This document shows, in pieces, positions 6,279 to 29,750 of a DNA stretch of 29,750 bases. The stretch lies in the IMG/VR virus record IMGVR_UViG_3300043570_000854, positions 1 through 29,750 of that record; one strand, given 5' to 3'. Position 1 is the first letter of the stretch. Each line of letters begins with the position of its first letter. The DNA is from a virus. Made by a program: the position numbers and the translations under genes. The notes beneath the pieces are model-generated. The model was not told the DNA's origin. It was given only the letters and a program-made list of their open reading frames with translations, and did not search any database.

Positions 6279-7453
6279 GAAATGACGGGTATTGTACCCT
6301 CCCGTTCAATCATATGAATCTACATCCCAACGGCAACGTTTCTATTTGTTGTGTTGCTAAAATGGATGGTCCAGATAGTGGATTCGCCAAAGATAGTCAA
6401 GGAGAATTGCTAAATTTAAAAACACACACATTTGATGAAATCTTTAATAGTTATTCGACGAACAGAATTCGCGAAGAAATGTTATCCCAACAGTATCCAT
6501 CTGCTTGCGAGGGTTGTTATAAGATTGAGCAATATGGTGGAAAGTCGCGACGAATTACTGAAAATAATCGATGGGAAAATATTGAGAAACCTAAACTAGA
6601 ATTTCTAGATATCAGATTAAGTAACCTTTGTAACTTAAAGTGTTTGATGTGTTATCCTGACTCTAGTTCTTCCCTTGTGTCTGATTATAAAGAATGGTCT
6701 GACCAACTTCCATTTATGACAAAAAACAGTGCTGAACATGAATTGTTTCAGTGGTTCGACGAAAGTATTATTGATCAACTATATGCACACAAAGACACTT
6801 TAAGGTATCTGTATATTAATGGCGGCGAACCGTTTATTATGCCGATGCACTGGAAATTACTTGAAAAACTAATAGAATGGGGTGTCGCTAGTAACATTCA
6901 TATCAGTTACAACACCAATTGCACAACTTATGATGAATCGTTCAGCGATTATTGGAAACACTTTAAGGTTGTTACGCTTGGTTGTAGTATGGATGCAGTA
7001 GGTGATAGAAATAAGTTTATTCGATACCCAAATGATTGGGAAAAGGCGAATAGAAATATTCAAAAGTTTCTAGAAAATCCTCATATCGCTGCTATAAACA
7101 TTACATGTAGCATTCAATGGTTGAATGCACCATATCTACCTGAGTTTTATGAATGGGCAGTTCCGCTCACTAAACTCAAACCCCACACAACTATCAATCA
7201 GAATTTCATTGTGTTTCCTGAGTATCTCTCGTTGAATTGTGCATCAAAACAATTCAAAGAAGATTTAAAGTTGCTATATGAAGACTCTCCGTATTCAAAC
7301 TGGATTCTTACTGAAACAATGAAATCGTATCTTCGTGTTGAATCTGAAGATGATAAACTTTGGAATCAGGGTAATAAATACTTAGACGTTGTTCAACTGA
7401 GTAGAAAAATGGGCCCGTGGAAAGATATATTCAATTATGACTATCAATACTGA
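6260..7453 (+). CDS. Twitch-type radical SAM protein (3 of 5)
   Basis: 397 residues from a GTG at 6260 with GAGGA nine bases upstream. The N-terminal segment has the classic twitch/SPASM look: YC-x-LPF-x-HMNLHPNG-x-VSICC, an acidic helix, then CEGCYKIEQYGG (C12, C30, C31, C83, C86). The radical SAM motif is C124-x3-C128-x2-C131 (CNLKCLMC), and NGGEPF follows at about residue 200. It belongs to a different subgroup from the first two, being closer to the widespread twitch-domain radical SAM proteins reported from marine phages. Substrate unknown. It overlaps the next gene by 17 bases. Confidence 0.88.
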   Translation: MVQHSLRNDGYCTLPFNHMNLHPNGNVSICCVAKMDGPDSGFAKDSQGELLNLKTHTFDEIFNSYSTNRIREEMLSQQYPSACEGCYKIEQYGGKSRRITENNRWENIEKPKLEFLDIRLSNLCNLKCLMCYPDSSSSLVSDYKEWSDQLPFMTKNSAEHELFQWFDESIIDQLYAHKDTLRYLYINGGEPFIMPMHWKLLEKLIEWGVASNIHISYNTNCTTYDESFSDYWKHFKVVTLGCSMDAVGDRNKFIRYPNDWEKANRNIQKFLENPHIAAINITCSIQWLNAPYLPEFYEWAVPLTKLKPHTTINQNFIVFPEYLSLNCASKQFKEDLKLLYEDSPYSNWILTETMKSYLRVESEDDKLWNQGNKYLDVVQLSRKMGPWKDIFNYDYQY

Positions 7454-8726: not shown

Positions 8727-9868
8727 GCGAAACTAAAATTTATTGTCCATCTATGTGGAAATCGGTTCATGTTGATACCGATGGTTACTTAACTCCATGT
8801 TGTCTTTTCATTCACAAAGAAGACAAAAAAAGTAAACTTGTCGATATACAACACGCAGAAACAATTCTACAAGAGGAATTCCAGGAATATCGTGACCAAT
8901 TATCGAACGGTATTTGGCCTAGTGGATGTAATCAATGTAAATTCGCAGAGGAAGAAGGCAGAGATAGCAAACGTCAACAAGATATGTGGATGTTACATAA
9001 TGGAACAATGCAAACTCCACCTGAAGACGTTTCCCTTGAATATCTACAGTTAAAAACTGGAAGATTGTGTAATCTTCGATGCACAATTTGCACTCCTGCA
9101 TGTTCAACTGCAATATCCACAGAACTGTTGCGCATAGGAAAATTGGATAGAGCAACATACGATCGACTAAACGAAGAGATTGCTTGGTCTTATGATGTGG
9201 AACAATATAAAAAATTGAATCCAGGTGAAAATGGATATTTCAGAATTGATATTGCGGGCGGAGAACCTCTATTAAACAAGACACACTTCGAGTGGTTGGA
9301 TCAATTACCAAATCCAGAAAAAACAATATTGCTATACAATACAAATGGAACGCAAAGACCTACCAGAAAAGAAATTGATATTTGGAAAAAATTTAGAGGA
9401 ATTATTCTATCCTTTAGTATAGATTCTTACGGCGACAAATTCGAGAAACTTAGAGTGGGTGCTAAATGGGATCAAGTATTGGATAACTTAAAATACTGCC
9501 AAGAAGAAATTATAGCAAAGGAATTCGATTTACATACATCAAATGTTTCTGTTGTTATGACAGTAAGTAAGATGAACGTAAGAGACGCAATTCCTCTTTA
9601 CAAAATATTGAATCAATATGTGCGATTTAATAATTCAAATCCGCTGAATTTTAACTACTTGTATTATCCTGACAACATGGCATGCCATAATATGTCACGC
9701 AAAGAACTCGAAGAAGTAATCGGATTATATGATGCAGAAATTCCTTCTTTACCCAAAGAAGGTAAAATGCGAAAACAATGTGTCGATTTACGAAACAGTC
9801 TATCTTCATTTTTGAACGGAAAGGAAGTAGAAAACCCAAGACCAATGCCGAAAGATCATAGAGAATGA
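8723..9868 (+). CDS. Twitch-type radical SAM protein (5 of 5)
   Basis: 381 residues if started at the ATG at 8723, which overlaps the previous stop as ATGA; a TTG at 8708 would add five residues. Auxiliary cysteines are C8, C26, C27, C69 and C72 (YCPSMW, PCC, CNQC). The radical SAM motif is C116-x3-C120-x2-C123 (CNLRCTIC), with AGGEPLLN following. SFSIDSYGDKFEKLR is the strand and turn typical of late barrel strands in twitch enzymes. The three twitch-type members (3, 4, 5) share the paired CC in the N-terminal set, which members 1 and 2 lack. It is joined to the SGNH-like gene by another ATGA overlap. Confidence 0.87.
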   Translation: MSETKIYCPSMWKSVHVDTDGYLTPCCLFIHKEDKKSKLVDIQHAETILQEEFQEYRDQLSNGIWPSGCNQCKFAEEEGRDSKRQQDMWMLHNGTMQTPPEDVSLEYLQLKTGRLCNLRCTICTPACSTAISTELLRIGKLDRATYDRLNEEIAWSYDVEQYKKLNPGENGYFRIDIAGGEPLLNKTHFEWLDQLPNPEKTILLYNTNGTQRPTRKEIDIWKKFRGIILSFSIDSYGDKFEKLRVGAKWDQVLDNLKYCQEEIIAKEFDLHTSNVSVVMTVSKMNVRDAIPLYKILNQYVRFNNSNPLNFNYLYYPDNMACHNMSRKELEEVIGLYDAEIPSLPKEGKMRKQCVDLRNSLSSFLNGKEVENPRPMPKDHRE

Positions 9869-10695: not shown

Positions 10696-10771
10696 GAAGT
10701 ATTTCGAAAAAAAGAAACATATTCGAAGAATGAAAAAACTTAGAAAATTAGATCCGTTCATCTATGATTGA
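10667..10771 (+). CDS. Small basic peptide, 34 residues
   Basis: The ATG at 10667 has AGGA six bases upstream, inside the end of the SGNH gene. The ORF runs past that gene's stop and overlaps the start of the carbamoyltransferase gene by eight bases. The peptide begins with a short hydrophobic stretch (LLLIKI), is dominated by Lys and Arg (KKKHIRRMKKLRK) and ends in the distinct LDPFIYD. It fills the only gap in the cluster. It could be a coupling leader, an RNA-binding peptide or a modification substrate; none of these is shown. No cysteines are present. Confidence 0.5.
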   Translation: MIKLLLIKIKKYFEKKKHIRRMKKLRKLDPFIYD

Positions 10772-12188
10772 GTGGGGAATCTCTGCTGCCGCACATGACG
10801 CAGCGCTGACTGTTGTTAACGGGAAAGAAATCCTGTTTGCCTCGAGCGCAGAGCGTTATAGTGGTGTTAAGAATGATAAAGATCTTAATAAGGATCTGAT
10901 TGATGCTGCTCTGAAGTTTGGTAAACCAGAGAAGATCCACTGGTACGAGAAACCAAAACTTAGGGGGATGCGTAGACTGCTTTCTGGTCAAGGAATTGTT
11001 CGGTTCAGCGTTCGGCAGTATCTAAAACATTTTGGTCTTGAAGTTCCAGTCGAATTTGCTTCACACCATGAGTCGCATGCAGCAGCAGGATTCTATACCT
11101 CTCCATTTCATTCAGCAACCACTCTAGTAATTGATGCTATCGGTGAGTTTGATACGGCATCTATCTGGACATGTTATGCACATGTTATGAAGAAACAGTG
11201 GAGTATGGATTATCCAAAATCTCTTGGTTTATTTTATTCTGCTATGACTGATCGTGTAGGTCTGAAACCAAACGAAGATGAATATATCCTCATGGGTATG
11301 GCAGCGTATGGCGTAAAAGAACGTTATTATGCTGAGATTAGAGAATTGTGGGAGAAAGAAACTCTTCATCGTGGATGTAAGTGGTGGAGAATGGATGATG
11401 AACCACATCCATTCGATATCGCTGCTGCCACTCAACAGATATATGAAGAAGAATTCGAAAAACTACTGATACGTGCAAAGAAGATAGATCCATTTCAAGA
11501 AAATTTAGTTCTTATGGGAGGGTGTGCATTAAACTGTAGTGCAAACCATATTGCTCTAAAACATTTTAAGAATGTTTGGATTATGCCAAATCCTGGCGAT
11601 GCAGGAAGCAGTCTTGGAGCGATTGCTGCCAACAATCGCGAGAAGTTAAATTGGCAAGGTCCATATCTCGGTGAGAATATCGAGGGTGAATATCCTGTCG
11701 AAAATCTATTGACTTATCTCAAAAAAGACGGTATAGTGGGTGTTGCAAATGGACGTGCAGAGTTTGGTCCACGTGCTTTAGGTAATCGTAGTTTGTTAGC
11801 AGATCCAACTAGGAATGATATCAAGGACAAGGTAAATGCAATTAAACGAAGGCAACAGTTCCGTCCATTTGCTCCAGTCATCATGGCAGAATATGCAAGA
11901 GACTATTTTGACATGCCAATTTCGGCATCCCCTTATATGCAATTTACTTCAAGATGTAAATATCCTGATCAATTTCCTGCTATTGTTCATACTGATGGAA
12001 CAAGTCGAGTTCAGACTGTAACCAAGGAACAACATCCTGGATTGTATAAACTACTAGAAAGATGGTTGGAAGAAACAGGTTGTCCGATGTTGCTCAATAC
12101 AAGTTTGAACATCAAAGGATTTCCTATGGTAAATGATTTGCGAGATGCTGATATGTTCCAAGGATTATACCGAGTGAAGGTCTTTTAA
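10764..12188 (+). CDS. NodU/TobZ-family carbamoyltransferase
   Basis: 474 residues. Family members transfer a carbamoyl group from carbamoyl phosphate, through carbamoyl-AMP, to a sugar hydroxyl or similar acceptor. The N-terminal Kae1-like half shows AHDAALT, HHESHAAAGFYTSPF (about 101-115), DAIGEFD (124-130) and GGCALNCSAN. The C-terminal YrdC-like half shows GRAEFGPRALGNRSLLADP and NTSLNIKGFPMV. It is somewhat shorter than the usual 550-600 residues, but all main motifs are present, so it is probably active. Carbamoyltransferases of this type are known in marine T4-like phages. Here it closes the methyltransferase / radical SAM / SGNH run, which suggests it decorates the same product. No strong ribosome site is seen; coupling to the 34-residue peptide is likely. 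Confidence 0.9.
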   Translation: MIEWGISAAAHDAALTVVNGKEILFASSAERYSGVKNDKDLNKDLIDAALKFGKPEKIHWYEKPKLRGMRRLLSGQGIVRFSVRQYLKHFGLEVPVEFASHHESHAAAGFYTSPFHSATTLVIDAIGEFDTASIWTCYAHVMKKQWSMDYPKSLGLFYSAMTDRVGLKPNEDEYILMGMAAYGVKERYYAEIRELWEKETLHRGCKWWRMDDEPHPFDIAAATQQIYEEEFEKLLIRAKKIDPFQENLVLMGGCALNCSANHIALKHFKNVWIMPNPGDAGSSLGAIAANNREKLNWQGPYLGENIEGEYPVENLLTYLKKDGIVGVANGRAEFGPRALGNRSLLADPTRNDIKDKVNAIKRRQQFRPFAPVIMAEYARDYFDMPISASPYMQFTSRCKYPDQFPAIVHTDGTSRVQTVTKEQHPGLYKLLERWLEETGCPMLLNTSLNIKGFPMVNDLRDADMFQGLYRVKVF

Positions 12189-14959: not shown

Positions 14960-15372
14960 ATCAGTTGTTGATACAAACTGAATGCTGCGTAGGACAGGGG
15001 TGCAACTCCCCTCGCCTCCACCATAAGCACTGCTCCGATAGAGGGTTCAGTCGCCGAAAAGGGCAGTGCTTATGATGGGGGCGTACTTAGGATTCGACTG
15101 CGAGTTGAAGGCGAGAGTAGACTGATTGCTTGGGTAAAGTGCCCACAAAAAGTAAATGCAAACGATAACGTTGCCTTTGCCCTTGCTGCGTAAGCAGTAA
15201 GTCATTGGGTTTTCGGCGGTTTCCCTCGAAACAGAATAAACCGCCAACCGTTCTAATTTAGCGGTGAAAAGAGACTATCAGGGGTCTCGAAACCCTAAAT
15301 ATAATGCACCTTTGAAAAAAAGTGCCCAGTGTAGGGAGTCACTGGATAATCCTCTCTCCAGTTCAACAATCC
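14960..15372 (+). ncRNA. ssrA: Two-piece, circularly permuted tmRNA
   Basis: The acceptor piece comes first: T stem AGGGG/CCCCT with loop TGCAACT (14996-15012), acceptor strand CGCCTCC (15013-15019), then ACCA. After a 53-base spacer the coding piece starts at 15077 with GGGGGCG, which pairs fully with CGCCTCC and includes the G3-U70 pair that identifies alanine tRNAs. GGATTCGACT follows, as in all tmRNAs. CTGCG (after GATTCGA) pairs with CGTAG before the T arm. The tag starts at GCA 15158 and reads ANDNVAFALAA, stop TAA 15191-15193 in a GTAA loop closed by an 8-bp stem. Pseudoknots are visible at 15271-15296 and 15326-15359. TTGTTGA (14965-14971) can pair with TCAACAA (15363-15369), which would join the two pieces; ends are inferred from this. 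It rescues stalled ribosomes and tags their products for proteolysis. Confidence 0.93.
15023..15073 (+). repeat. Inverted repeat in the tmRNA intervening spacer
   Basis: ATAAGCACTGC (15023-15033) and GCAGTGCTTAT (15063-15073) are perfect 11-base inverted repeats. They overlap the end of the CCA and lie three bases before the coding piece. They extend the acceptor stem into one long precursor hairpin that must be cut to free the CCA end and the coding-piece 5' end. Confidence 0.9.
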
Positions 15373-15383
15373 GAGGAATAGAG

Positions 15384-16004
15384 ATGCCTTCCTTCAATAA
15401 GAAGACATTGAAAGTTCTTTCTGCATTTTTACTAGTAATTGTAACATATTGTATATCATTGAGTTATGCAAAAGAAAGAATCGAAGACACCGCAATGGAA
15501 TACACTGTCGGTGGATATGAGAAAGTCGAAAGCGTAAAACGACAAAAACAAGAAATCTTACAAAAACAAGAAGAAATTATACAAACTAAAATTCAAAAAG
15601 AAAAAAAGAAATACCTGTCACAAAACTCTCAGGCAATAACTTGCCTAGCAGACAACATCTACTACGAAGCAGGTAATGAACCCAGAAAGGGTAAAATCGC
15701 GGTTGCTGGTGTCACAATGAATCGTGCACGCAATCCAAAATATCCATCAAACGTTTGCTCTGTCGTTTATCAGAGAACAAGTAGGGTCTGTCAGTTCAGT
15801 TGGACGTGTATGCGTCGACCTGCTAAAGACCCAGTATTATATGCTGAAGCAAAAGATATTGCGAAAAAAGTATTGACTTCTGAGATCAATACGCGTATAG
15901 TAGTTAATAATAACGTGTTGTTCTACCATGCGGATTATGTCAATCCAGGTTGGAAATTACAACGAGTTACTAAAATCGGTAGACATATTTTTTACGCAGG
16001 ATAG
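15384..16004 (+). CDS. SleB/CwlJ-type cell wall hydrolase, membrane-anchored
   Basis: 206 residues. The ATG at 15384 follows GAGG at good spacing and lies just after the tmRNA; the frame extends upstream to 15264 but only through tmRNA. Residues ~9-28 form a hydrophobic signal or anchor segment, preceded by Lys residues. A charged coiled coil (about 40-78) comes next, rich in Lys, Gln and Glu. The hydrolase_2 (SleB) domain follows at about 85-206, with CLADNIYYEAGNEP (likely catalytic Glu), GVTMNRA and the C-terminal YHADYVNPGW block. It should cleave peptidoglycan from the periplasm. The role may be lysis or wall remodelling. Four domain cysteines may form disulfides. Placement outside the tail block argues for lysis rather than entry. 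Confidence 0.85.
   Translation: MPSFNKKTLKVLSAFLLVIVTYCISLSYAKERIEDTAMEYTVGGYEKVESVKRQKQEILQKQEEIIQTKIQKEKKKYLSQNSQAITCLADNIYYEAGNEPRKGKIAVAGVTMNRARNPKYPSNVCSVVYQRTSRVCQFSWTCMRRPAKDPVLYAEAKDIAKKVLTSEINTRIVVNNNVLFYHADYVNPGWKLQRVTKIGRHIFYAG
15873..15901 (+). promoter_or_regulatory. Possible sigma70-like promoter inside the SleB gene
   Basis: TTGACT (15873-15878), 17 bases, TATAGT (15896-15901). Located about 100 bases ahead of gp33, it would allow gp33-gp59 expression apart from the tmRNA promoter. It lies in coding sequence; chance is possible. Confidence 0.45.
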
Positions 16005-17993: not shown

Positions 17994-18024
17994 AAAAGGG
18001 GGACTTAATCGTCCCCCTTTTTTT
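17994..18024. terminator. Bidirectional terminator between gp32 and tape-measure genes
   Basis: AAAAGGGGGAC (17994-18004) pairs with GTCCCCCTTTT (18011-18021); the plus strand ends in T7, the minus strand in TTTT. It lies between convergent genes and overlaps the stop of the minus-strand gene by two bases. Confidence 0.93.
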
Positions 18025-20953
18025 ATCCGAAAGATCTTCTATTTTGGAACCGTTGCCAACTACTGTCTTCAGTTCTGACCGTATCCATTGGTAGAGAACC
18101 GCCACCATTATTTTGTTGTGGTGGAGCAGGTTGTTGAATTACAGTCGGCGGCGGAACATTAATGACTGGTGCAGTATCTTCTTTTGCACTTTCTGTCATC
18201 TCTTTTAGATTTGCCGCACCGCTATTATTTCCTGTTTCTAGATTACTCTTGGTAACAGGATTGGTTTTAATAGACCCTGCAGTATTCGGTGAGAATATCT
18301 CTGGACCATTTTCACCAACAAGATAAGAACCATTAGCAGATACAGGACCACCTGCTGCTCTTGCTCCGTCGACGGATTGAGTTGATCCCTCCGTCGATTC
18401 TTCGTTATTTTCATTGGCAATATCTCTTGCTGCAAGAGCAGCATCAATCCCAAACGATGCAGCAGTTCCTGCTCCCCCTGCTAAAAATCCAACACCACCA
18501 GCAAGTCCTGATGCAACTTCTCCTGCAGCACCTAAGAAGTCACCTTTCATCAGGCGACCAGCACCAAAGGCAAGACCAGCGCCAACACCAAGAAGCGGAA
18601 TTTTCTTCAGCAGAGATTTACCTGCTGCTTTACCTGCTATCTTCGCTCCACCCTTGCCTGCTGCTTTAGTAATTCCCTTGCCAGCGGAAGATGCCATTGC
18701 TTTCTCAGCAACATTACTAATCGCACCCTTTGCCTTTCCAAGCATATTCATACCACCTTTGGCAATTTTACCAATGGTGCTTCCCTTATCGACTTCTTTG
18801 CCGATAACTCCAGATGCTTTACCAAACATCCCTTTACCAAATTGAGATGCCTTTCCAAGAATCCCCTTACCCTTTTCGGCGACTCCTGCAGCGCGATCTC
18901 TATACAATTTACCGATTCGAGATTGCCTTGCAGCACCACTCAGAGTCTTACCGTTTTTGTCTACCAGTTGCTCTGCGGCAATACCTCTGTTCTTGATGAC
19001 GTCGGTTGCTTTACTACGCAAAGCACCTACGCGATCTGAGATAAAGTCTGTCGCCTTGCTCTTTATTGCATTTGCGCGACTTACAACTTTTCCTGCCGCA
19101 CCTTCTACAACGGTTGTTCCTTTGTTGAAATATCCTTGTGCTTTATCTGCAAATCTGGAAAGTCCTGGAGAATATCTCTGATTCTTGAGACCAGTTAGTA
19201 GTTTCTGTCCGCCAGATTTGAATCCAGCATATGCCCCAGTTATTCCGCCAAGTAGAGATCCTCCACCACCTTGCGACCCAGAATCATCTTGCGAACCATT
19301 GCCAGTTGCAGGGGTTTCTGGTGTTACTCTAGAATTTGCTGATTCCGTACCACCGATCACTACTTTTGGAGTAGATTTTTCTTTTGCTTCTACCTTCGCC
19401 GATAGTTTTTCAGCGTTTTGCCTGTCGATGTTTTCTGCACGTTTTTGTGCATCAGCAGCTGCTTGTTCTGCCTCTGCTTGTGCTACTTTGTTACGATTCA
19501 TAACTTCTTTTACATTGGAACTTGGATCCAACTGTTTTTTACCAGAAGGTGCAACACCAGCACGTTTTTTATCGAACAACTTATCCTTGATTTCTATAAT
19601 GATGTCTTTAATTTCATTTAAGATAGATGAAATATCATTTTTATCTTCGGGTACAATTCCACTCTTGGCAGACTGAATCTTTACCTTTGGTTGCTGCGAT
19701 TCTTTGTATTTTGCTTCAAGAGTTTTGTTAATCTCTTCCATTGATACAGGTTTACCATCTTTTCTGTAAGAAAAGTCTTTTTCAGAAGAAGGTTTGATGC
19801 CTTGTTGTTCTAAAATCTTTTTGTGTTCTTCGGTAAGATTTGACATCTTATCAATAGACTTGAATTCTGCAATCGATTGTTTTTCCGACTGATTAGTTTC
19901 TGTCTTGCTCGAATCAGATGCTGAATTATTAGTTTCTGTCTTGCTCGAATCAGATGCTGAATTATTAGTTTCTGTCTTGCTCGAATCAGATGCTGAATTA
20001 TTAGTTTCTGTCTTGCTCGATTCGGAAGTTGAATTATTAGTTTCTGTCTTGCTCGATTCGGAAGTTGAATTATTAGTTTCTGTCTTGCTCGAATCAGATG
20101 CTGAATTATTAGTTTCTGCCTTGCTCGATTCGGAAGTTGACTGATTGTTCACAGACTTATTATTGTCATTTGTTGACTGATTAGTTTCAGTCTTACTATT
20201 AATTGCCTCGGAGAACATTTTCTTCAGGCGATCTACTTCAGAAACTCTTTCATTAGATTGGTTTACTTCGCTACGAATTTCTTCTCGACGAGATTCTTGA
20301 GAATTGAATACCTTTCCAAGCACTCCGTTCTGCGGAGTTAATCCTTTTTTGAATCCTGTTGTGAATTCACTACCAAAGTTTTTGAAACCTTCGATCAATC
20401 CTTTAGTTGGCGTTCCTTCTCTTCCAGGTTCCTTTGAGTTTCCGAAAAACTCTTGCTTCAATCTATTGACGAATGTGTCGTCTTTTCCTTCTAAGGTGAG
20501 ACCTTCTGCCTTGAAGCGTTCGTCTAGAGATTTGTTTTGTAATTCTTTACCGATGTCGCCAAGTTCTCTTGGTCCACCACTCTCGCTTCTAGCAATCATT
20601 TTTGCTGCGAGGTCATTGATTTCTTTTAGAGATTTCTTAAACTCTTCTACGGTCTTGAATTGCAATTTTGTGATTGCATCCAAGGTGTCTTCCATGAGTT
20701 TCTTATCTTGAGATTCTAATGATCTGATTGCCTCGGTAGTATTCTTATCAATAGATTCAATAAAACTGTCGATCAATCTTGCTGATGCTTGCTTATCTGC
20801 AGGTCTATTTTTATTGACATCAAGAACCTTGCGAATTTCAGAAAACAATTTGTCCTTGTCTCCAGATTGCATTGGTTTTGCCCCAGAACTTGAATTGTTC
20901 TTGGCGGTTTCTATGACCGTAGCAAATCTTTCTGATGCGGACTTGGTTTCCAT
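18023..20953 (-). CDS. Tail tape-measure protein
   Basis: 976 residues. The N-terminal ~350 residues are charged and helical. Then comes a 7-unit, 12-residue repeat (SSKTETNNSASD type). A coiled-coil stretch rich in Ala, Glu and Lys follows (about 500-550), then many short glycine/lysine/alanine repeats (KGKGILGKASQFGKGMFGKA). A hydrophobic, possibly membrane-active segment lies at about 790-860 (IPLLGVGAGLAFGAG, LAGGVGFLAGGAG). The C-terminal GGPVSANGSYLVGENGPEIFSP is a motif widely found in tape-measure proteins. It sets tail length inside the tube and probably enters the host membrane at ejection. It is longer than T4 gp29 (590). It follows gp51 and gp26 genes as hub genes do in T4, with a TAATG overlap to gp51. 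Confidence 0.85.
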   Translation of the reverse strand: METKSASERFATVIETAKNNSSSGAKPMQSGDKDKLFSEIRKVLDVNKNRPADKQASARLIDSFIESIDKNTTEAIRSLESQDKKLMEDTLDAITKLQFKTVEEFKKSLKEINDLAAKMIARSESGGPRELGDIGKELQNKSLDERFKAEGLTLEGKDDTFVNRLKQEFFGNSKEPGREGTPTKGLIEGFKNFGSEFTTGFKKGLTPQNGVLGKVFNSQESRREEIRSEVNQSNERVSEVDRLKKMFSEAINSKTETNQSTNDNNKSVNNQSTSESSKAETNNSASDSSKTETNNSTSESSKTETNNSTSESSKTETNNSASDSSKTETNNSASDSSKTETNNSASDSSKTETNQSEKQSIAEFKSIDKMSNLTEEHKKILEQQGIKPSSEKDFSYRKDGKPVSMEEINKTLEAKYKESQQPKVKIQSAKSGIVPEDKNDISSILNEIKDIIIEIKDKLFDKKRAGVAPSGKKQLDPSSNVKEVMNRNKVAQAEAEQAAADAQKRAENIDRQNAEKLSAKVEAKEKSTPKVVIGGTESANSRVTPETPATGNGSQDDSGSQGGGGSLLGGITGAYAGFKSGGQKLLTGLKNQRYSPGLSRFADKAQGYFNKGTTVVEGAAGKVVSRANAIKSKATDFISDRVGALRSKATDVIKNRGIAAEQLVDKNGKTLSGAARQSRIGKLYRDRAAGVAEKGKGILGKASQFGKGMFGKASGVIGKEVDKGSTIGKIAKGGMNMLGKAKGAISNVAEKAMASSAGKGITKAAGKGGAKIAGKAAGKSLLKKIPLLGVGAGLAFGAGRLMKGDFLGAAGEVASGLAGGVGFLAGGAGTAASFGIDAALAARDIANENNEESTEGSTQSVDGARAAGGPVSANGSYLVGENGPEIFSPNTAGSIKTNPVTKSNLETGNNSGAANLKEMTESAKEDTAPVINVPPPTVIQQPAPPQQNNGGGSLPMDTVRTEDSSWQRFQNRRSFG
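19893..20144 (-). repeat. 36-bp tandem repeat in the tape-measure gene, 7 units
   Basis: Seven head-to-tail 36-base units encode a 12-residue Ser/Thr/Asn-rich repeat SSK(T/A)ETN(N/Q)S(A/T)S(D/E). Units differ at a few bases (gaatcagatgct versus gattcggaagtt), giving two alternating subtypes. There are no spacers, so this is not a CRISPR. The repeat likely forms a flexible linker. Confidence 0.95.
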
Positions 20954-23101: not shown

Positions 23102-23545
23102 CTATTTATTCGTGATTCCCAATTCTTTTTCAGTTAATATCAGGAATTTCCATTTTCTATCTAAACAGAACTCAGTTGCTGCTTTCCACTTTGCCTGATT
23201 AACTCCCCAAGTCATAACCTCTTGGAGAAACTGTTTAGTTTTTCTTTTTGGGATTTTGGGTTCTTGAGTAAACTTTGATGGTTTAATTTCGATCAAATAT
23301 CGCTCACCATTGACTTTAATATAGAAGTCGACGAAGTATCTGTGCACTCTACCGTCAACAGGAGATCTATACGGGATTGCAAGTTCTTCTGAACCCCATT
23401 CGGTGACACTATCATTTGCATCACACCACTTCATAAACTTCAATTCATAACTAGAACGGAAGATGATATTGGTCGGATCCCCAATATACTTACTGGGTTT
23501 CTGAATATTGTATCTACCTTTTAGGGAATCTCTTGAATAAACCAT
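23102..23545 (-). CDS. 4: gp4-like head completion protein (nuclease fold)
   Basis: 147 residues, the usual gp4 length (~150). The family pattern is clear: KGRYNIQKPSKYIGDPTNIIFRSSYELKFMKWCD, SVTEWGSEELAIPYRSPVDGRVHRYFVDFYIKV and the YLIEIKPSKF strand. The residues E...D...E-x-K (SYELKFM, YFVDF, IEIKP) form a PD-(D/E)XK-type active site. T4 gp4 acts after packaging to ready heads for tail joining. No clear ribosome site; a TATAAATA motif on this strand lies 32 bases upstream of the ATG. It is the first gene of the minus-strand tail/head operon. Confidence 0.92.
   Translation of the reverse strand: MVYSRDSLKGRYNIQKPSKYIGDPTNIIFRSSYELKFMKWCDANDSVTEWGSEELAIPYRSPVDGRVHRYFVDFYIKVNGERYLIEIKPSKFTQEPKIPKRKTKQFLQEVMTWGVNQAKWKAATEFCLDRKWKFLILTEKELGITNK
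23103..23110 (-). promoter_or_regulatory. T4-type late promoter motif AATAAATA (minus strand)
   Basis: It overlaps the gp4 stop region and lies six bases upstream of the ATG at 23096, the same motif-to-ATG placement as at 12190 and 13026 within one base. Confidence 0.45.
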
Positions 23546-23585: not shown

Positions 23586-24698
23586 TTGTCCGACAGTCAA
23601 AAATTCGCTAGAGAAGATCCTGCGAGAGAAGCACATATTCAAAAATATGCCAATATTGGTACTGCAACTCGGTATCCAATTGACTTGGAAACAGAATCTC
23701 CGCATTATGTTATCTTTTATCCATTGGTAAGAGAAGGTTCTCGTCTTGGTGAAGTATTTAAGAACCAAGGTGCTCCTGTTTTTGATAAGAGTCAACAAAA
23801 CACACAGCAACCTAAAAATTCTACTGCCCAAACTGCTGCTTTAGGTGCAGGTATTGGCGCTGGACTTGGTATCGCTGAGCAGTTGACTAATGGTGGCGGT
23901 AAAAACGCAGGTGGTGTCAGTCTCGCCCAAAGACTTGGTAGTGTAGTAGCCAAAACTTTAGGTGGCGGACTTGTTGGCGGGGCAGTTGGCGCATTATCAG
24001 GAAATCAAGAACTATACACAGGTTCTGGTGCTATTGCCCTTCAGATGCCTGAAAATAAAGTGTCTGCTGGGTATAAGGCAAATTGGACACCACAAGAAAT
24101 GGGTGCATTGCTTGGCGCAATCGGCGCTGGCAATCAGTCTCTCTTAGGCGCAATGAATCCACTGAGTCCAGATAACATGAAACTGGCATTACGTTCTGGC
24201 GGTAAACTTTCCAAAGTTCTGAGTGATAATGCTCTTGATGTTAACAAAGTATTAGAATCTACGACCAAAACTGTAACCAATCCATATAAAGAACAATTCT
24301 TTAAATCGATGAACAATAGATCTTTTGTCTTTGAATATAATTTTGCTCCAAAAAGCGAAGAAGAAGCAAAGGCAGTTTTCTATCGATACGCTGGTGCTCC
24401 TGGAGATAGAATGGGGATCATTCAAAAGTTCGCATACCATATGCATCCAGAACTTAGAGATTCTGGATACTTCTTCAACTATCCATCAGAATTTAGTATT
24501 GTTTATTACCACGCAGGAAAAGAGAATCAATACGTTCGTAAAATTTCTACTTGTGTTCTAACTAATATGACTGTGGATTATGGTAGTGATACTGGATTTA
24601 CCACGTTCGATAATGGTATGCCAACACATGCTACTATGCGTCTAGAATTCTTAGAACTAGAACTGATGACAGCACAAAGAGTCTTCCAAGGATATTAA
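23586..24698 (+). CDS. 48: gp48-like baseplate tail-tube protein
   Basis: 370 residues from TTG at 23586, with AAGGG about ten bases upstream; T4 gp48 has 364. In T4, gp48 caps the baseplate hub and starts tube growth with gp54. The N-terminal YPIDLETESPHYVIFYPLVRE leads into a Gly/Ala-rich hydrophobic stretch (AALGAGIGAGLGIAEQL, then GGGLVGGAVGALSG). The C-terminal tube-like part shows FEYNFAPKSEEEAKAV, YPSEFSIVYYHAGKEN and TATMRLEFLELELMTAQRV, as in gp48/gp54 proteins. Assignment to gp48 rather than gp54 rests on length and the next gene (gp53). Confidence 0.82.
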   Translation: MSDSQKFAREDPAREAHIQKYANIGTATRYPIDLETESPHYVIFYPLVREGSRLGEVFKNQGAPVFDKSQQNTQQPKNSTAQTAALGAGIGAGLGIAEQLTNGGGKNAGGVSLAQRLGSVVAKTLGGGLVGGAVGALSGNQELYTGSGAIALQMPENKVSAGYKANWTPQEMGALLGAIGAGNQSLLGAMNPLSPDNMKLALRSGGKLSKVLSDNALDVNKVLESTTKTVTNPYKEQFFKSMNNRSFVFEYNFAPKSEEEAKAVFYRYAGAPGDRMGIIQKFAYHMHPELRDSGYFFNYPSEFSIVYYHAGKENQYVRKISTCVLTNMTVDYGSDTGFTTFDNGMPTHATMRLEFLELELMTAQRVFQGY

Positions 24699-24699
24699 T

Positions 24700-25230
24700 A
24701 TGTATTTCAGACAATTTCCAGTATTACGAGGAAAGTTCGATGGTACCTATAAGGGTGTCACGGATATTTTTCTTCGTGTTGCACCAAAAACTCCAATTAA
24801 AAATGTAGACTTTTTAGAAACAACCTATATTCAAGATGGAGAAACTCCAGAATTACTCGCATTTAAAATGTATGAACGAGAAGACTATCACTGGGTTCTA
24901 CTACTAACAAATAGCATCGTTGATGTTCGCGAAGAATGGCCAAGGAAAGATAAAGATCTTTACTCTTACTGTGTAGAAAAATATGGCGAGAATAATATCT
25001 ATCAAGCAGTACACCATTATAGAACAACAGATATGCTTGCATCGCAAGGCGTTCCGAAGGGAATTATTGTTGATTACGATTCAGCAAAGGTTTTATCTGG
25101 TGAGCACGAACCAGTTACAAACTGGGATTATGAATATGAATTGAATGAGGATAAGAGAGAAATTAAGTATATTCCAAAGAATTTAATTGGCAAGTTTGTC
25201 TCGGAATTTCAACGATTAATTAGAGTATAA
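24700..25230 (+). CDS. 53: gp53-like baseplate wedge protein
   Basis: 176 residues (T4 gp53 has 196). In T4 it is part of the wedge and helps join wedges to the hub. Family features seen are the FLETTYIQDGETPELLAFKMYEREDYHWVLLLTNSIVDVREEWP segment (LysM-like in T4), followed by YSYCVEKYGE and a C-terminal YELNEDKREIKYIPKNLIGKFVSEFQRLI. AAGGA lies upstream of the ATG. One base separates it from the hub gene. Confidence 0.92.
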   Translation: MYFRQFPVLRGKFDGTYKGVTDIFLRVAPKTPIKNVDFLETTYIQDGETPELLAFKMYEREDYHWVLLLTNSIVDVREEWPRKDKDLYSYCVEKYGENNIYQAVHHYRTTDMLASQGVPKGIIVDYDSAKVLSGEHEPVTNWDYEYELNEDKREIKYIPKNLIGKFVSEFQRLIRV

Positions 25231-25231: not shown

Positions 25232-27208
25232 ATGTCGGATTCAAAATCAAAACACTTATCTAATCCAGGTGACGTATCGTTTAAAACTGTTGAGATTCAA
25301 AGTGTCAACGGTGAGGTTCTTGACATCAAAAATTTTATCGTAGAACTTAACATTTATGAAGATATTTTCTCGAATGCATTACAGGGTGTTTTGATTGTTG
25401 TTGACTCAAAAGAACTTCTTTCTGGGTTGCCACTTGTGGGTGACGAACTATTAAATCTCTGGATTCAGACTCCTACGTTCGGCGACGAGTATGGCGAAAG
25501 TATCAAAAAGACTTTCTCAATTTATTCGATTAAGAATAGAATGTTGAATGCCGACCGTGAACAAATGTATGCATTATACTTCTGTTCTATGGAAGCAGTC
25601 AGCGATAATATTACACAGGTGAGCAAAAAGTACGAAGGTACTACAGATGAAATTGCAGATAAACTTTATACTGATTTTCTAAAGCAACAACGTTGTTTCG
25701 GTGGAATCGAAAATAAAGATGAAACTCCAATGGTTATTGCGGACACTCCACACGAAGGTAAAATTGCATTCGTTGCAAATATGTGGTCGCCATTCCGCTG
25801 TCTTAATTACGTGGCACAAAGATCTATCGGCGCAAAACAGAAGTCGCCAAGTTTCTTATTCTATGAAACCACAAGACAATTTTACTTCACTTCTATTGAT
25901 AATCTAATTAAGAGTCAATTGGATGATAGTTCTGTGTTTGCTGAATATGTATATTTGCCGAAACCTGTCAATCCTACCATAGATTTGAATGATGGTTCGA
26001 CGTTTGATACTACTAAACCTGACTTGGACAAGGGATTTAATACAGTATCTGATATTCGCTTTAGTGAGCAAGTAGATATTCTGAAGTCTCAAGATCAGGG
26101 AAGATTCGCCAGCACTACGACAATCTTTGATATTATGATTAAAGAAGCGACGAATGCACCACACGATTATTCATATTCGTATCCTGATATTATTCATATG
26201 GAAAATTATCGTGTTGAAAACGGCAAAGCAACATTCCATGAAGAGTCGAAGGATAATATGACATATCCTGCGAACGTAACTCGTTCAGCGTTGTCTAAGC
26301 GTTTCTTCCGTCCTGTGCATAGAAAGGTTCTTACTACCAGCGACGACGAATTATTAGACTATGCACCTGATAAATGGTTGGGGATGCGTCAAAGCGTTCT
26401 CGAAGATATTTCTGGTCTGCGTATGCATATTACAGTTCCTGGAAGAACTGATGCGGAAGTTGGTAAGATTGTAAACTTCAAATATCCTAAAGTTGGAGAT
26501 AGTGCAGATAAGTCAGACCCAAAAAACCTTTGGGACCCATTCCTTTCTGGTGTTTGGATGATCACTGCGATTCACCATAAGATGACTCCAGTTGCGCATA
26601 GTATGATTTTGGAAATTGCTAAGGACTCGTTCCATACAGCGTTCCAAGCAATTACACGTGCACCTGCACCAACTCCTCCTGCTGCAGATGATAAAGAAGC
26701 ACTGGAAGAACAAGGATCTCCTGAAAATGGTGCAACTCCGTCGTCCAATGGTGCAACTCCTGCGTCTACTGGACCAGTAAATAAAGCAGGATGGACTCAT
26801 CCAACTGGCGGTGCGGGTCGTGTTTCTAGTAAATTCGGACCCAGACAATCTCCTGGTGGACAAGGTTCTACTAACCATCAGGGAGTAGATATTGCTGCAC
26901 CAAAGGGTACGACAGTTTATGCTGCTAGAGACGGCACAGTTTCTCTGACAGGATGGCAAAAACCAGAGAAACGTTCAGGAAAGGGATCTGGTGGCGGGAT
27001 TCGTGTTAAAATTGAGCATGCTGGCGGTTACTCAACCTTCTACGGTCATGGTGTCGAAGGTTCTATAATGGTCAAACCTGGAGATAAGGTAAAGGCTGGG
27101 CAAGCAATTATGAAAGTCAATAGCACTGGTCAATCGACAGGACACCATCTACACTTTGAGATTTGGTTAAATGGTAAAAAAATAAATCCGCTTCCTTATA
27201 TTTCGTGA
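25232..27208 (+). CDS. 27: gp27-like baseplate hub with C-terminal M23 peptidase
   Basis: 658 residues; T4 gp27 is 391, so the extra length is an added enzyme. The N-terminal ~490 residues form the hub (FKTVEIQSVNGEVLDIKNFIVELNIYEDIFSN near the start, a tail-hub pattern). A Pro/Ala/Gly-rich linker follows (about 475-515). Residues ~525-658 are an M23/LytM metallopeptidase: NHQGVD gives zinc ligands His and Asp, TFYGHG the middle His and HHLHFE the last His-x-His. All ligands are present. It should cut peptide cross-links of peptidoglycan during entry. The hub label rests on the N-terminal pattern and on location between gp53 and the gp5-like spike. Confidence 0.82.
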   Translation: MSDSKSKHLSNPGDVSFKTVEIQSVNGEVLDIKNFIVELNIYEDIFSNALQGVLIVVDSKELLSGLPLVGDELLNLWIQTPTFGDEYGESIKKTFSIYSIKNRMLNADREQMYALYFCSMEAVSDNITQVSKKYEGTTDEIADKLYTDFLKQQRCFGGIENKDETPMVIADTPHEGKIAFVANMWSPFRCLNYVAQRSIGAKQKSPSFLFYETTRQFYFTSIDNLIKSQLDDSSVFAEYVYLPKPVNPTIDLNDGSTFDTTKPDLDKGFNTVSDIRFSEQVDILKSQDQGRFASTTTIFDIMIKEATNAPHDYSYSYPDIIHMENYRVENGKATFHEESKDNMTYPANVTRSALSKRFFRPVHRKVLTTSDDELLDYAPDKWLGMRQSVLEDISGLRMHITVPGRTDAEVGKIVNFKYPKVGDSADKSDPKNLWDPFLSGVWMITAIHHKMTPVAHSMILEIAKDSFHTAFQAITRAPAPTPPAADDKEALEEQGSPENGATPSSNGATPASTGPVNKAGWTHPTGGAGRVSSKFGPRQSPGGQGSTNHQGVDIAAPKGTTVYAARDGTVSLTGWQKPEKRSGKGSGGGIRVKIEHAGGYSTFYGHGVEGSIMVKPGDKVKAGQAIMKVNSTGQSTGHHLHFEIWLNGKKINPLPYIS

Positions 27209-27216
27209 GATAAAAA

Positions 27217-28320
27217 ATGACAGACAATTTCTTTTCAAATAATGATTCAAACTTTTATTGGTTCTTCGGGTGCGTCGAAGATCGTGGAGATCCTATGCGT
27301 ATTGGTCGTGTAAGATTACGAATCCTCGGTTATCATACAGACGACAAAGAACAGTTACCAACTGACGATCTTCCTTGGGCGATGCCGATTATGCCATCAA
27401 ACAGTGCAAGCACTTCTGGAATTGGTTGGTCGCCAACTGGTCCAGTGGAAGGTACTTGGGTGTGGGGATTCTTTATGGATGGTGCGGAAGGTCAGCAACC
27501 TGCATTCGTAGGAACAATTGCTGCTACTCCCGAGAGTAACGGTAGTGGCGGTGACGGTGGCGGTGGAGGTGATGATACAGGAAACTCGCCCACCTCTGGT
27601 GGTAGTAGCGGTAAGGGTAGTTCCAATAAGGTTGACCCTGCTGCTTTGGAAAAATTGAAAAATTGTAATTGCAGTAGTTTTGCTAAAAACATTATGGCAC
27701 GTGGCAATAAATCCAACATCAATCAAATCGTCAAAGCATGTAAGGCAGCAGGATATAGTAACGAAGCGACTGCTGCGTTTCTAGCAATTGCTGGTGTTGA
27801 ATCTGGATTCTCTCCTGTTGCTGAAAATACCAATTGGTCAGTTAAAACCATGCTGAAGAACTTTAGGAAAGTTCGAAATAGGGGTGAAGCATTCGCTCGT
27901 CAATTAAAGGCAGCAGGTCCAATTGCTATGGCAAACTTTATCTACGGTGATAAAAGTAAGGGTCTTGGTAATGCAGAATGTAGTGTCGTAACCACCTCTC
28001 CGTTGGATGGATATAAATTCCGAGGTCATTCTTTTGTGCAAATTACTGGTAAAGACGCATTCGCTAAAATTGGTAAGATAATTGGAGAAGATCTGGTATC
28101 TAATCCGCAAAAGGTAAACTCCAGTGTTGAATTTAGTGCTAAGTGTTGTCTTGCCTTTTACCAATACAAGGGCGTTAAAGTTTCTTCTCTTGTAGGTAAT
28201 AATGCTATTGAAATTTTGATTAAACAAACTGGTGCCGATATTGGGCAAAATCACCAGCATAAGAGAGAATTGTATAAGTGCTTTATGGAAAACTTTACTA
28301 AGAATGGAAACTTTATCTAA
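27217..28320 (+). CDS. 5: gp5-like spike protein with GH19 lysozyme-like domain
   Basis: 367 residues. Residues ~10-105 fit the gp5 OB domain (FYWFFGCVEDRGDPMRIGRVRLRILGYH, DLPWAMPIMPS, WVWGFFMDGAEGQQPAFVGTI). A Gly/Ser linker follows (~108-145). Residues ~165-355 are a GH19 chitinase/lysozyme-like domain: FLAIAGVESGF with the likely catalytic Glu, AENTNWSVKTML, PIAMANFIYGDKSKGLGN, and FRGHSFVQITGKDAFAKIG, the family's (Y/F)RG-x-x-(F/L)(I/V)Q-(L/I)TG signature. T4 gp5 instead carries a phage-type lysozyme followed by a beta-helix needle; no such helix is seen here. It probably cuts the peptidoglycan glycan strands. The next gene's ATG overlaps its stop. Confidence 0.85.
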   Translation: MTDNFFSNNDSNFYWFFGCVEDRGDPMRIGRVRLRILGYHTDDKEQLPTDDLPWAMPIMPSNSASTSGIGWSPTGPVEGTWVWGFFMDGAEGQQPAFVGTIAATPESNGSGGDGGGGGDDTGNSPTSGGSSGKGSSNKVDPAALEKLKNCNCSSFAKNIMARGNKSNINQIVKACKAAGYSNEATAAFLAIAGVESGFSPVAENTNWSVKTMLKNFRKVRNRGEAFARQLKAAGPIAMANFIYGDKSKGLGNAECSVVTTSPLDGYKFRGHSFVQITGKDAFAKIGKIIGEDLVSNPQKVNSSVEFSAKCCLAFYQYKGVKVSSLVGNNAIEILIKQTGADIGQNHQHKRELYKCFMENFTKNGNFI

Positions 28321-29750
28321 TGTTAGATATTCTACGCGACCAAGATTTATCTGGTATTCTAGACAAAACCAAAATAAGTAAGGTTCTGTCTGAAACTGAA
28401 ATTAAGCAGGTGATGGGATCCATTGCGCATGACGTTGGTGGAGGATCCCACTCTACAATTTCAGATAGTGGTAAGGTTGGAGCATATGGTTTCAACCTCG
28501 AAGCATTACAGACAGTTGGTGCAGTTGCACCTAATGCTATTGAAAAAACATTAGAGAACATTAAAAAGAATATTCCTGATATTTCTTCGCTGGTGAAGAA
28601 AACATGGGTCAGAGAGCAAGCATCAGATGCACTGGGTAAGTTAGGTCTTAGTGGTCTGATCGGTAAAAACCTCGGTAAAAACTTTGCTCTTGATGCTCTT
28701 AACAAACTGAAACTACCAATCCCAACCAACATCGGCAATGTTGGCAACAACCTAAATTTTGCTGCTCTTGCAGATCCTAAAATTTGGACAGCAAAACCTG
28801 GTAGTGCTGCAGAAACAGCAATCAATGTTGTCAACCAAGCAAATGGATCTATTACCTCTGCAGTTTCTTCTGTTAAGAATACTCTTTCTAAAGAGGTCTC
28901 GGGTCTTACTACAAAGATTGCATTGTCGAGATCTGAATCAGGGTCGAATGAAGTATTAAGTACTACAAACAAAATGGTTTCGACCATGACAAAGACACTT
29001 ACTGCCTCGGCGACAAAATCTGCTACTGCGTTAATTACCAATTCAGTAAAACTTCCATCTGCAACTAAGGTTGCCTTCGAGTTAGTTTCTAAACAAATTG
29101 ATAATAAAACTTCTGCTGTAAACGAAGCAATTGATGTTTCTTTCGATCCATTCAGAGCGTCACCATCTATTGAAAATATGACAAGTGCTGTTTCTGTTGT
29201 TACTGGATTAATTGACGCACACGAAAAAGAAATTACTCAAATTATCGATGATACACACATCGAACAGACCACAAATCTTGGCGGCGGTGGCGGCGGATTT
29301 CTAAATGATCCAGAATCTCAAAACAATGCAATGATTTCTCTGCTCGATCGAAATATTAAATCCCTTCTTTCTGCCAAGGCAATTTCATTGGACTCTCCCA
29401 AAGATGTTATCATGGGAATGTTGTCCGTTGCTAATGGACAAGGAATCGACACGGCAATTAAGTTTGCTAATGGATTGATCAAAACTAGTTCTAGTGGGAA
29501 AACTTCTCTAGATTTCTTTGGGGTTGGTTTTTCAGCAAACAAATTATTAGATGAATTGTTGGAACCAAAACCTGGATCACCAACAATCTCAGCACCAAAT
29601 CCTGCTGCGCTTGCGCAGGCAAAACCAACTGTTGCCAATTTACCGACTAACGAGAATCTGAGGAATACTGATCCAACAAAGGGATATAAGGATCCCAACA
29701 ACGTCTATCCTAAAAAGGAATATCTCGAAGCAGGTAATGGCGACGTTAAT
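28320..29750 (+). CDS. Tail/baseplate structural protein, 3' truncated by window end
   Basis: The ATG overlaps the previous stop (TAATG). The frame is open for 477 codons to the window end, and no stop is seen. The first ~330 residues are rich in Ala, Ser, Thr and Lys with amphipathic helices, suggesting a fibrous or coiled-coil structural protein. A glycine run (NLGGGGGGF) lies at about 320-328. The end, YKDPNNVYPKKEYLEAGNGDVN, resembles the linker before the C-terminal spike-like domain of large cyanophage tail proteins (a YP..EYL...D-x-N pattern). This comparison is from memory. It lies directly after the gp5-like gene. Confidence 0.7.
   Translation, partial: MLDILRDQDLSGILDKTKISKVLSETEIKQVMGSIAHDVGGGSHSTISDSGKVGAYGFNLEALQTVGAVAPNAIEKTLENIKKNIPDISSLVKKTWVREQASDALGKLGLSGLIGKNLGKNFALDALNKLKLPIPTNIGNVGNNLNFAALADPKIWTAKPGSAAETAINVVNQANGSITSAVSSVKNTLSKEVSGLTTKIALSRSESGSNEVLSTTNKMVSTMTKTLTASATKSATALITNSVKLPSATKVAFELVSKQIDNKTSAVNEAIDVSFDPFRASPSIENMTSAVSVVTGLIDAHEKEITQIIDDTHIEQTTNLGGGGGGFLNDPESQNNAMISLLDRNIKSLLSAKAISLDSPKDVIMGMLSVANGQGIDTAIKFANGLIKTSSSGKTSLDFFGVGFSANKLLDELLEPKPGSPTISAPNPAALAQAKPTVANLPTNENLRNTDPTKGYKDPNNVYPKKEYLEAGNGDVN

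Follow-up and report, generated by a model that had tools for sequence, protein, structure and literature searches.

Several described tail complexes share parts of the architecture considered here. The hub gp15 of cyanophage A-1(L) (PDB 8KEA) is dual-hydrolytic, with two domains proven active, and it places glycan- and peptide-cutting domains on the contractile-tail hub of a phage whose host is of the Gram-negative type (cyanobacterial); its lysozyme, endoglucanase and peptidase domains all reside on one protein (PMC10966104). In the T4 gp27-gp5 complex, the hub is joined by a spike with a gp5 OB domain beside an enzyme domain and a beta-helix needle, but there is one enzyme, of the T4 lysozyme type, and a single gp5 gene, the product of which is cleaved at Ser351-Ala352 (PMC3004832). 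The tail tip of phage phi29 also bears an M23 endopeptidase, gp13, which is, however, a single tail-knob protein of a Bacillus podophage rather than a T4-type hub and spike (PMC9662197). Evolved VgrG proteins and other type VI secretion effectors are also spike-like carriers with C-terminal enzymes, but these are inter-bacterial weapons, not phage entry tools. To our knowledge, the T4 hub-spike complex includes no M23 and no M15 domain. According to a 2017 review of virion lysins, every virion lysin with two lytic domains then known belonged to a phage infecting Gram-positive bacteria, endopeptidase activity had been demonstrated for just one virion lysin from a phage of a Gram-negative host, and two different virion lysins were known in only two bacterial viruses (PMC5380687); the 2024 report on the A-1(L) hub alters part of this picture (PMC10966104). 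A proven dual-hydrolytic hub (A-1(L)), spike lysozymes and domain shuffling are already known.

Two sequenced phages come closer in gene content. In gp5 of Synechococcus phage BUCT-ZZ01 (ON615601), the OB, GH19, needle and M15-type parts follow one another in the same order as in the locus described below, but within one 939-aa protein instead of two, and the gp27-like neighbour lacks M23. Methylophilales phage Melnitz (MZ577098) has two adjacent spike genes and a needle protein with an M15-type end; however, its first spike gene yields a weak VanY-type match (below cut-off) and no GH19, and BLAST detected no M23 on its gp27-like protein. Neither PMC10448857 nor the excerpted text on Melnitz (PMC9004378) contains anything on a comparable hub-spike set, and we found no description of the combination of gp27-M23, OB-GH19 and needle-M15 in the titles, abstract openings and excerpts consulted from the open-access literature.

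The window analysed here, a 29,750-nucleotide stretch of viral DNA, encodes what we take, with a probability of about 0.78, to be the hub and spike at the centre of a contractile tail of the T4 type, bearing predicted wall-cutting domains of three families. The relevant features are the following:

15264..16004, + strand: separate SleB-type cell wall hydrolase, domain at 15675-15995 (PF07486, E 1.2e-22)
23586..24698, + strand: baseplate tail tube cap protein (phrog_230, E 1.3e-42)
24700..25230, + strand: gp53-like baseplate wedge protein (PF11246, E 4.8e-8; phrog_232)
25232..27208, + strand: hub protein, gp27-like, 658 aa, ending in an M23 peptidase (phrog_350, PF01551)
26639..26794, + strand: hub-M23 linker of variable length, rich in Pro, Gly, Ser and Asn (alignment of hub proteins)
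26873..27190, + strand: M23 peptidase domain, residues 548-653, with H549, D553, H606, H639 and H641 (PF01551, alignment)
27217..28320, + strand: gp5a, gp5 OB domain followed by GH19-type domain, 367 aa (PF06714; phrog_430 at residues 1-153, phrog_181 at 165-301)
27637..28305, + strand: GH19-type domain, residues 141-363, with E195 and E203 (profiles, solved-protein matches, alignment, model)
28318..28320, + strand: gp5a stop and gp5b start with one-base overlap, TAATG (sequence)
28320..29750, + strand: gp5b, first 477 codons, running off the window end (complete in overlapping contig L076, 91-3099)

The initial annotation described a gp27-like hub ending in a complete M23 peptidase, and the profiles bear this out. 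In the PHROG profile search, residues 8-469 of the hub match phrog_350, labelled 'tail protein' (E 8.2e-73), and the hub of the window shares 26% identity with the annotated proteins encoded beside gp5 in BUCT-ZZ01 and in Melnitz. Residues 548-653 match Pfam M23 at E 1.1e-27 and 96.5 bits, against a curated cut-off of 28.7 bits, and cover profile positions 2-96 of 96. In M23 peptidases, the HxxxD and HxH motifs supply the zinc and catalytic residues; H549, D553, H606, H639 and H641 are all kept in 15/15 aligned hub proteins. The hub of the window shows M23 only, with the glycan cutter sitting on the spike, and is therefore not a hub of the A-1(L) type: that hub unites its enzyme domains on one protein, while the complex described here distributes them among the hub, the spike and the needle protein. 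8KEA is absent from the matches to the M23 domain of the window at E 1; the 8KEA hub chain does match the lambda-type spike domain of a relative (L061, E 2.3e-5). The hub complex of the window may work like the A-1(L) hub without being a member of that type. A solved chain titled 'Gp16' (9m7n, 915 aa, three chains) also carries M23 close to the C-terminal end; it is possibly a phage hub, and a hub-borne M23 may perhaps already be present in the structure archive.

The adjacent spike protein, gp5a, likewise agrees with the earlier description of a gp5-like spike ending in GH19 and devoid of T4-type lysozyme, given that the T4-type phage lysozyme profile (PF00959) produces no match in it at E 0.1. 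Its OB domain matches PF06714 at E 5.8e-15 (56.2 bits, cut-off 25). For the GH19-type part, phrog_181 matches at E 1.9e-20, and five solved proteins bearing GH19-type domains match at E 2.4e-9 to 1.5e-6; Pfam GH19 itself scores 23.3 bits (E 6.1e-5), slightly below its cut-off of 25.5 bits, which is exceeded in two relatives (34.3 in L056 and 35.0 in L083). In the structural model of gp5a, block means of pLDDT in the GH19 region range from 68 to 95, with the OB region modelled poorly, and a Foldseek search with residues 146-363 ranks GH19 endolysins and chitinases first. The best VIA-align match to the GH19-type model has Z 13.4 (rmsd 5.3, 194 aligned), TseP (8xcl), which its title calls a dual functional effector, reaches Z 13.0 with a sequence match of E 2.4e-9, and the phi29 gp13 chain 3csq reaches Z 9.5, although helical models can attain Z 13 through common arrangement alone. 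GH19 enzymes have two catalytic glutamates, and E195 and E203 are kept in 16/16 aligned GH19-type proteins. Loss of catalytic Glu or zinc ligands had been named in advance as a refutation; neither the M23 nor the GH19 alignment shows any such loss. In one of the main comparison contigs (L002), the OB and GH19 parts are encoded in separate reading frames, owing to a frameshift or a sequencing error.

The statement in the initial annotation that the spike has no needle helix does not stand. The needle lies in the next gene, gp5b, which starts at 28320 and is known in full from a contig that overlaps the window by 1521 bases at 98.9% identity; the needle and the M15-type part are thus known from this contig and from relatives, outside the window. 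There, gp5b is 1002 aa long, with the needle at about 530-745 and an M15-type domain at about 838-1002. The beta-helix repeats of the needle give a period-8 score of 0.55 compared with a shuffle mean of 0.16, and 0/5000 shuffles score as high. Because the relatives have the needle in the next gene, the spike is best described as gp5-like and split rather than as T4 gp5 proper; a needle-less spike was rejected accordingly. The one-base overlap of gp5a and gp5b recurs in 12/15 loci compared.

The end of gp5b matches phrog_894, labelled 'endolysin', at E 9e-22. Pfam M15 falls below its cut-off of 23.2 bits in most members (17.6 in L044) and passes it in L121 (25.0), NCBIfam gives no match for the M15-type domain in four members, and, among solved proteins, a single-sequence search for relatives of this domain returned one chance match (E 0.94) and a profile search none. 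The M15 motif comprises SxHxxxxxxD, a Glu and WxH, and four M15 residues are kept in 15/15 aligned M15-type domains. The structural model of gp5b is weak (mean pLDDT 46), the exception within the first 450 aa being long helices at about 163-315; residues at about 50-65 look faintly lysozyme-like by eye, with the catalytic Glu missing. In two other phages, an M15-type domain is fused to PAAR tip proteins, and a Pfam PAAR search of 5/5 records, possibly fragments and including that of the window, detected no PAAR tip protein.

The earlier count of three wall hydrolases in the phage missed the M15-type peptidase domain of gp5b and is probably too low. Given the complete gp5b with its M15-type end in the overlapping contig, the number of wall-cutting domains is probably three in the hub complex and, once the SleB-type protein is counted, four in the phage as a whole. 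This separate protein, as previously noted, is real; it is present in 5/5 records, the window's included, matches the spore_SleB model at 1.8e-16, under its cut-off, and is likely an endolysin.

Comparison with relatives shows exchange of the enzymes. Among 51 near-clade contigs, M23 is present in 40, GH19 in 30 and a lambda-type domain in 7; 27/51 combine M23, a spike enzyme and a needle with M15. Across relatives, the spike slot holds GH19, a lambda endolysin domain, a T4 lysozyme domain (PF00959, in the more distant L175) or, by a weak match, a SleB-type domain. In identity profiles against the relatives, M23 and the spike enzyme diverge while the scaffold stays alike, and nucleotide identity begins to drop in the hub-M23 linker. 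In one pair (L010 and L019), 472/478 hub residues are identical as opposed to 81/135 in M23. The trees conflict, as do the AU tests and the dS values. In seven pairs, dN/dS is about 0.04-0.47 for M23 and thus exceeds the hub values of about 0.03-0.07; two GH19 pairs and two M15 pairs have values of 0.02-0.05. As shown by these sequence comparisons, M23 and the spike enzyme behave as cassettes that are swapped independently among relatives on a conserved scaffold. Endolysins and tail proteins have been described as trading enzyme domains while keeping a common scaffold, but the excerpts of that work (PMC10684548) include no hub M23 or spike GH19 cassettes, whereas here two adjacent sites vary independently in near-identical phages.

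Local wall digestion during DNA entry is most likely the role of the enzymes on the predicted hub and spike. Three copies each of the gp27-like hub, gp5a and gp5b would form a torch-shaped complex, as in T4. Upon tail contraction, the needle would cross the outer membrane, and M15 at the needle end, GH19 on the spike and M23 on the hub would cut peptides and glycan strands locally, allowing the tube to pass; the SleB-type protein would serve the final lysis. The gene break between gp5a and gp5b would substitute for the protein cleavage of T4, parting the needle from the portion that bears the enzyme, and cassette swapping would allow the phage to keep pace with host walls of differing chemistry. 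The dual entry tool proposed initially appears sound in pairing a hub-borne peptide cutter with a spike-borne glycan cutter, considering the identity of the domains, the kept residues and the fact that relatives retain the two side by side; it is incomplete in that the spike does have a needle, whose separate gene ends, in relatives, in a further peptidase domain, and in that M23 and the spike enzymes are exchangeable.

We lean, by a small measure, towards an extended version of this model, with three ports (the C-terminal end of the hub, the spike and the tip of the needle), each carrying a different wall enzyme. On a near-constant tail, cassettes of unrelated folds at the hub port (M23, SGNH-like or none) and the spike port (GH19, lambda-type, T4-lysozyme-type or SleB-type) would be swapped independently, adapting the phage to walls of another chemistry much as a change of tail fibres adapts it to other receptors. 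In this T4-type hub complex, predicted cutters of three families sit on three separate proteins, and two of these cutters are visibly swapped among phages that are otherwise nearly identical; natural pairs such as L010 and L019 thereby offer a test of how far one wall enzyme shapes host range.

Conceivably, one or more of these domains are remnants without enzymatic function, or serve to bind the wall or to activate other enzymes, which would leave one or two real cutters. Some M23 domains, such as that of EnvC, are activators, and the solved matches to the M23 domain of the window include EnvC-type proteins; the dN/dS of 0.47 in one M23 pair is also in line with this possibility, as is the failure of GH19 and M15, in the window or in the relatives nearest to it, to reach their Pfam cut-offs. 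Nevertheless, the five M23 residues, the two GH19 glutamates and the four M15 residues are all invariant in the alignments, and a replaced spike enzyme gives way to another wall enzyme, so we regard such a loss of function as improbable. That the enzymes serve release or virion assembly instead of entry, for example as extra late-made lysis enzymes, appears even less plausible: the swapped spike enzymes do resemble endolysins (lambda endolysin at E 6e-27, and GH19 endolysins), but the enzymes are fused to hub and spike proteins within the baseplate locus, the phage has a separate SleB-type protein, and the spike lysozyme of T4 is required for infection, not lysis (PMC3004832).

The chance that the gp5a-gp5b split and the needle are assembly artefacts, with a truly needle-less spike in the window, is in our view minute. 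The needle does lie outside the window, and, among the 40 of 1960 records listed, no match in named phages at E 1e-5 covers residues 1-391 of one gp5b (L044). Against this, many contigs have the same gene order and a complete gp5b of about 1000 aa, phrog_430 spans both the OB domain in gp5a and the needle in gp5b, and the spike of Melnitz is likewise split.

Elsewhere in the window, a 976-aa protein encoded at 18023-20953 on the minus strand matches PHROG families labelled peptidase and endolysin. It was rejected as a fifth hydrolase: the matched stretch is Gly/Ala-rich and hydrophobic by eye, with no Pfam family and no solved relative. The C-terminal 50-odd residues of this protein match tape measure proteins.

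The hub and spike genes lie downstream of a gp53-like gene and a tube-cap gene, and for this reason we regard the region as a baseplate locus. Its relevant features are as follows.

25232-27208, + strand: gp27-like hub, an ORF of 658 aa, with phrog_350 at residues 8-469 (E 8.2e-73)
Hub residues 548-653: C-terminal M23 domain (PF01551, E 1.1e-27, profile positions 2-96 of 96)
27217-28320, + strand: gp5a, first spike gene, 367 aa, with OB domain, Gly/Ser-rich linker and GH19-type domain in that order
28320 onwards, + strand: gp5b, second spike gene, directly after gp5a, leaving the window after 477 codons

In the hub, a variable linker separates the phrog_350 part from the M23 domain, in which H549, D553, H606, H639 and H641, presumably the residues with known roles in M23 enzymes, are unchanged in all 15 aligned proteins, including that of the window. 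Thus, the proposal of the initial annotation that the hub ends in a complete M23 peptidase holds. The dN/dS of the M23 domain (Nei-Gojobori) was uneven over seven pairs, from about 0.04 (between the relatives L002 and L016) to 0.47 (window and L003). Because these values exceed those of the hub in the same pairs (about 0.03-0.07), the M23 domain evolves faster, or under looser constraint, than its carrier.

The OB domain of gp5a is well supported (PF06714, 56.2 bits; cut-off, 25), and T4 gp5 chains match the protein with E 1.3e-20. For the GH19-type domain, the Pfam score of 23.3 bits falls slightly under the cut-off of 25.5, which is exceeded in the relatives L056 and L083; phrog_181 matches with E 1.9e-20. 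Five solved proteins that contain the domain match with E 2.4e-9 to 1.5e-6; one is the secretion effector TseP, and the other four are endolysins or phage-type enzymes. In the structural model, the block means of pLDDT were 68-95 for this part, and pLDDT was below 50 for the OB part; GH19-type endolysins were the top matches of the GH19-type part in Foldseek and in VIA-align (best Z 13.4, rmsd 5.3, 194 aligned). E195 and E203, which we take to have the roles described for GH19 enzymes, do not vary in an alignment of 16 GH19-type proteins, both spike-borne and free, and dN/dS was 0.039 and 0.053 in two pairs (Nei-Gojobori). These observations bear out the assignment of a GH19-type domain to the end of the spike; the loss of catalytic Glu or zinc ligands, named at the outset as the argument against the two enzymes, was looked for in the alignments, and the residues proved invariant.

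The initial annotation also stated that a needle helix was lacking, and here it requires correction, because the needle, to judge from the relatives, sits in the next gene. The start of gp5b overlaps the gp5a stop codon by one base (TAATG), and the contig L076, which overlaps the window end by 1521 bases (98.9% identity; 470 of 476 residues identical), carries the complete protein of 1002 aa. Residues 589-745 of this protein show a period-8 repeat (score 0.55 against a shuffle mean of 0.16; 0 of 5000 shuffles as high). In the homologue from L044, residues 504-752 match the needle part of phrog_430 (E 5.5e-55) and residues 852-987, near the end, match phrog_894, labelled endolysin (E 9e-22), with weak, sub-cut-off Pfam matches to the gp5 trimer domain and Peptidase_M15_3; in L121, the Pfam M15 match is above the cut-off (25.0 against 23.2). 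The His, Asp, Glu and His that we assume to form the M15 motif are unchanged in 15 of 15 aligned proteins, and dN/dS was 0.021 and 0.048 in two pairs (Nei-Gojobori). Sequence and profile searches found no solved M15 chain for this domain, and the whole-gp5b model is poor (mean pLDDT 46), with short strands spaced 8 residues apart in part of the needle. Neither the needle nor the M15-type domain lies within the window; judging from L076 and the relatives, both would follow beyond its end in the window's phage as well. The first 450 aa of gp5b (L076:91-1440; the gene occupies 28320-29750 of the window) belong to no known family, and long helices are predicted at about 163-315 with fair confidence.

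The one-base overlap occurs in 12 of 15 loci compared; in the other three (L003, L017 and L040), the spike has a lambda-type domain, a relative of lambda endolysin (1am7, E 6e-27), and a short gap replaces the overlap. In phage BUCT-ZZ01, by contrast, OB, GH19, needle and M15-type domain all lie on a single protein of 939 aa, and BLAST found no M23 in its gp27-like neighbour, unlike in the window hub. The spike of phage Melnitz is, as in the window, encoded by two adjacent genes, the first with a weak VanY-type match, and two adjacent, overlapping spike genes are tabulated for cyanophage S-CREM2 (PMC10665884). T4 gp5 is made as one chain, in which later cleavage at Ser351-Ala352 parts the lysozyme from the needle (PMC3004832); in the window, the break falls between genes.

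Among 51 near-clade contigs compiled by hand (window and distant loci excluded), and counting a domain as present when at least 80% of the M23, GH19 or lambda-type domain was seen within the fetched stretch, M23 occurred in 40 and GH19 in 30, with the lambda-type domain replacing GH19 in 7; 27 combine M23, a spike enzyme, needle and M15 within that stretch. L038 alone has a nearly full hub without an M23 match, and this contig ends inside the gene. The M23 and spike-enzyme cassettes change independently, given that L002 differs from the window in M23 (DNA identity 61-69%, against 87-95% in the hub, 85-91% in OB and 91-99% in GH19), whereas L061 differs in most of the spike enzyme (33-41%, against 83-91% in M23 and 89% in OB). 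In L002, the reading frame also shifts on the way from OB to GH19, perhaps through a sequencing error. Furthermore, the hub and M23 trees conflict: M23 data reject the grouping of window and L002 (p-AU 4e-94), and hub data reject those of L002 with L016, L010 and L014 (p-AU 1e-38) and of the window with L003 and L015 (p-AU 2e-6), although the tested clades were named only after the trees were seen and many M23-tree branches are unsupported. Synonymous distances concur (L010-L019, hub dS 0.12 and M23 dS 1.47; window-L003, 1.12 and 0.26).

Among the best 80 of 201 hub relatives, the more distant 40 (L150-L189, 37-43% identity) yielded no M23 of the window type by BLAST at 1e-4; in eight of these 40, the hub ORF is 650-700 aa long and carries a different C-terminal extension. 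In M23's place, the hubs of L150, L153, L157 and L166, the four tested, weakly match GDSL/SGNH hydrolases (E 2e-4 to 1e-3, sub-cut-off). All 37 gp5a proteins of wider-clade loci have the OB domain at E 0.01, with GH19 in 25, T4-type phage lysozyme in 6, and Hydrolase_2 (SleB-type) and Phage_lysozyme2 in one each. The enzyme slot is T4-lysozyme-type in L175:6516-7481 and, by a weak match, SleB-type in L155:3512-4648; the SleB-type matches of L155 and L160 are sub-cut-off.

The sequences establish that the domains are present, that they are fused to structural parts, that their residues are conserved and that they are swapped. By analogy with T4, the hub-spike assembly would be trimeric, and during contraction M15 at the needle end, GH19 on the spike and M23 on the hub may act on the wall. 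A needle-end position fits M15, because the domain comes after the beta-helix and PAAR-M15 fusions exist elsewhere: Pseudomonas phage Aura and also Vibrio phage 1.255.O have PAAR tip proteins with the same M15-type domain in the C-terminal part (L190:1958-2962 and L191:1967-2953; by tblastn match, Pfam sub-cut-off). However, jumbo-phage PAAR proteins are mostly standalone according to a review (PMC7824862), and PAAR was not found in five of five records of the window's group, which does not prove absence. The separate SleB-type protein noted initially is indeed present (15264-16004), also in 4 of 4 relatives' records, and probably serves lysis.

The nearest functional counterpart is the hub of cyanophage A-1(L), a single protein with endoglucanase and peptidase domains, both of demonstrated activity (PMC10966104). 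Lysozyme on the T4 spike and M23 at the tail tip in phi29 gp13 (PMC9662197) are already known, and endolysins and tail proteins are known to undergo domain shuffling (PMC10684548). In searches of the open literature, we found no description of wall enzymes spread across three proteins of a T4-type hub or of independent exchange at hub and spike. In the named-phage collection, 0 of 1241 matching records reach 80% coverage of the hub-M23 protein and 0 of 2750 that of gp5a, so the combination is unseen among named phages at that sensitivity.

Elsewhere in the window, 18023-20953 (- strand) encodes a probable tape measure protein of 976 aa with near-identical SSKTETNNS repeats; its PHROG label of peptidase/endolysin was rejected, as it arises via a low-complexity stretch. 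At a head-completion-like position, 23102-23545 (- strand) matches the TnsA-like endonuclease N-terminal domain (PF08722, E 2.8e-21); a head completion protein is annotated at the matching place in Mosig and Melnitz. An adenylate/guanylate cyclase catalytic domain, to our knowledge unusual in phages, is encoded at 132-1289 (+ strand; PF00211, E 2.6e-18; also phrog_35576, function not known). Radical SAM matches (PF04055) occur in each of five consecutive, slightly overlapping ORFs at 3536-9868 (+ strand), of which three exceed the cut-off and two contain SPASM domains. Next come an ORF that matches no Pfam family and, at 10764-12188, a Nol-like carbamoyltransferase; the whole run resembles a phage-borne cluster for modifying small molecules or glycans.
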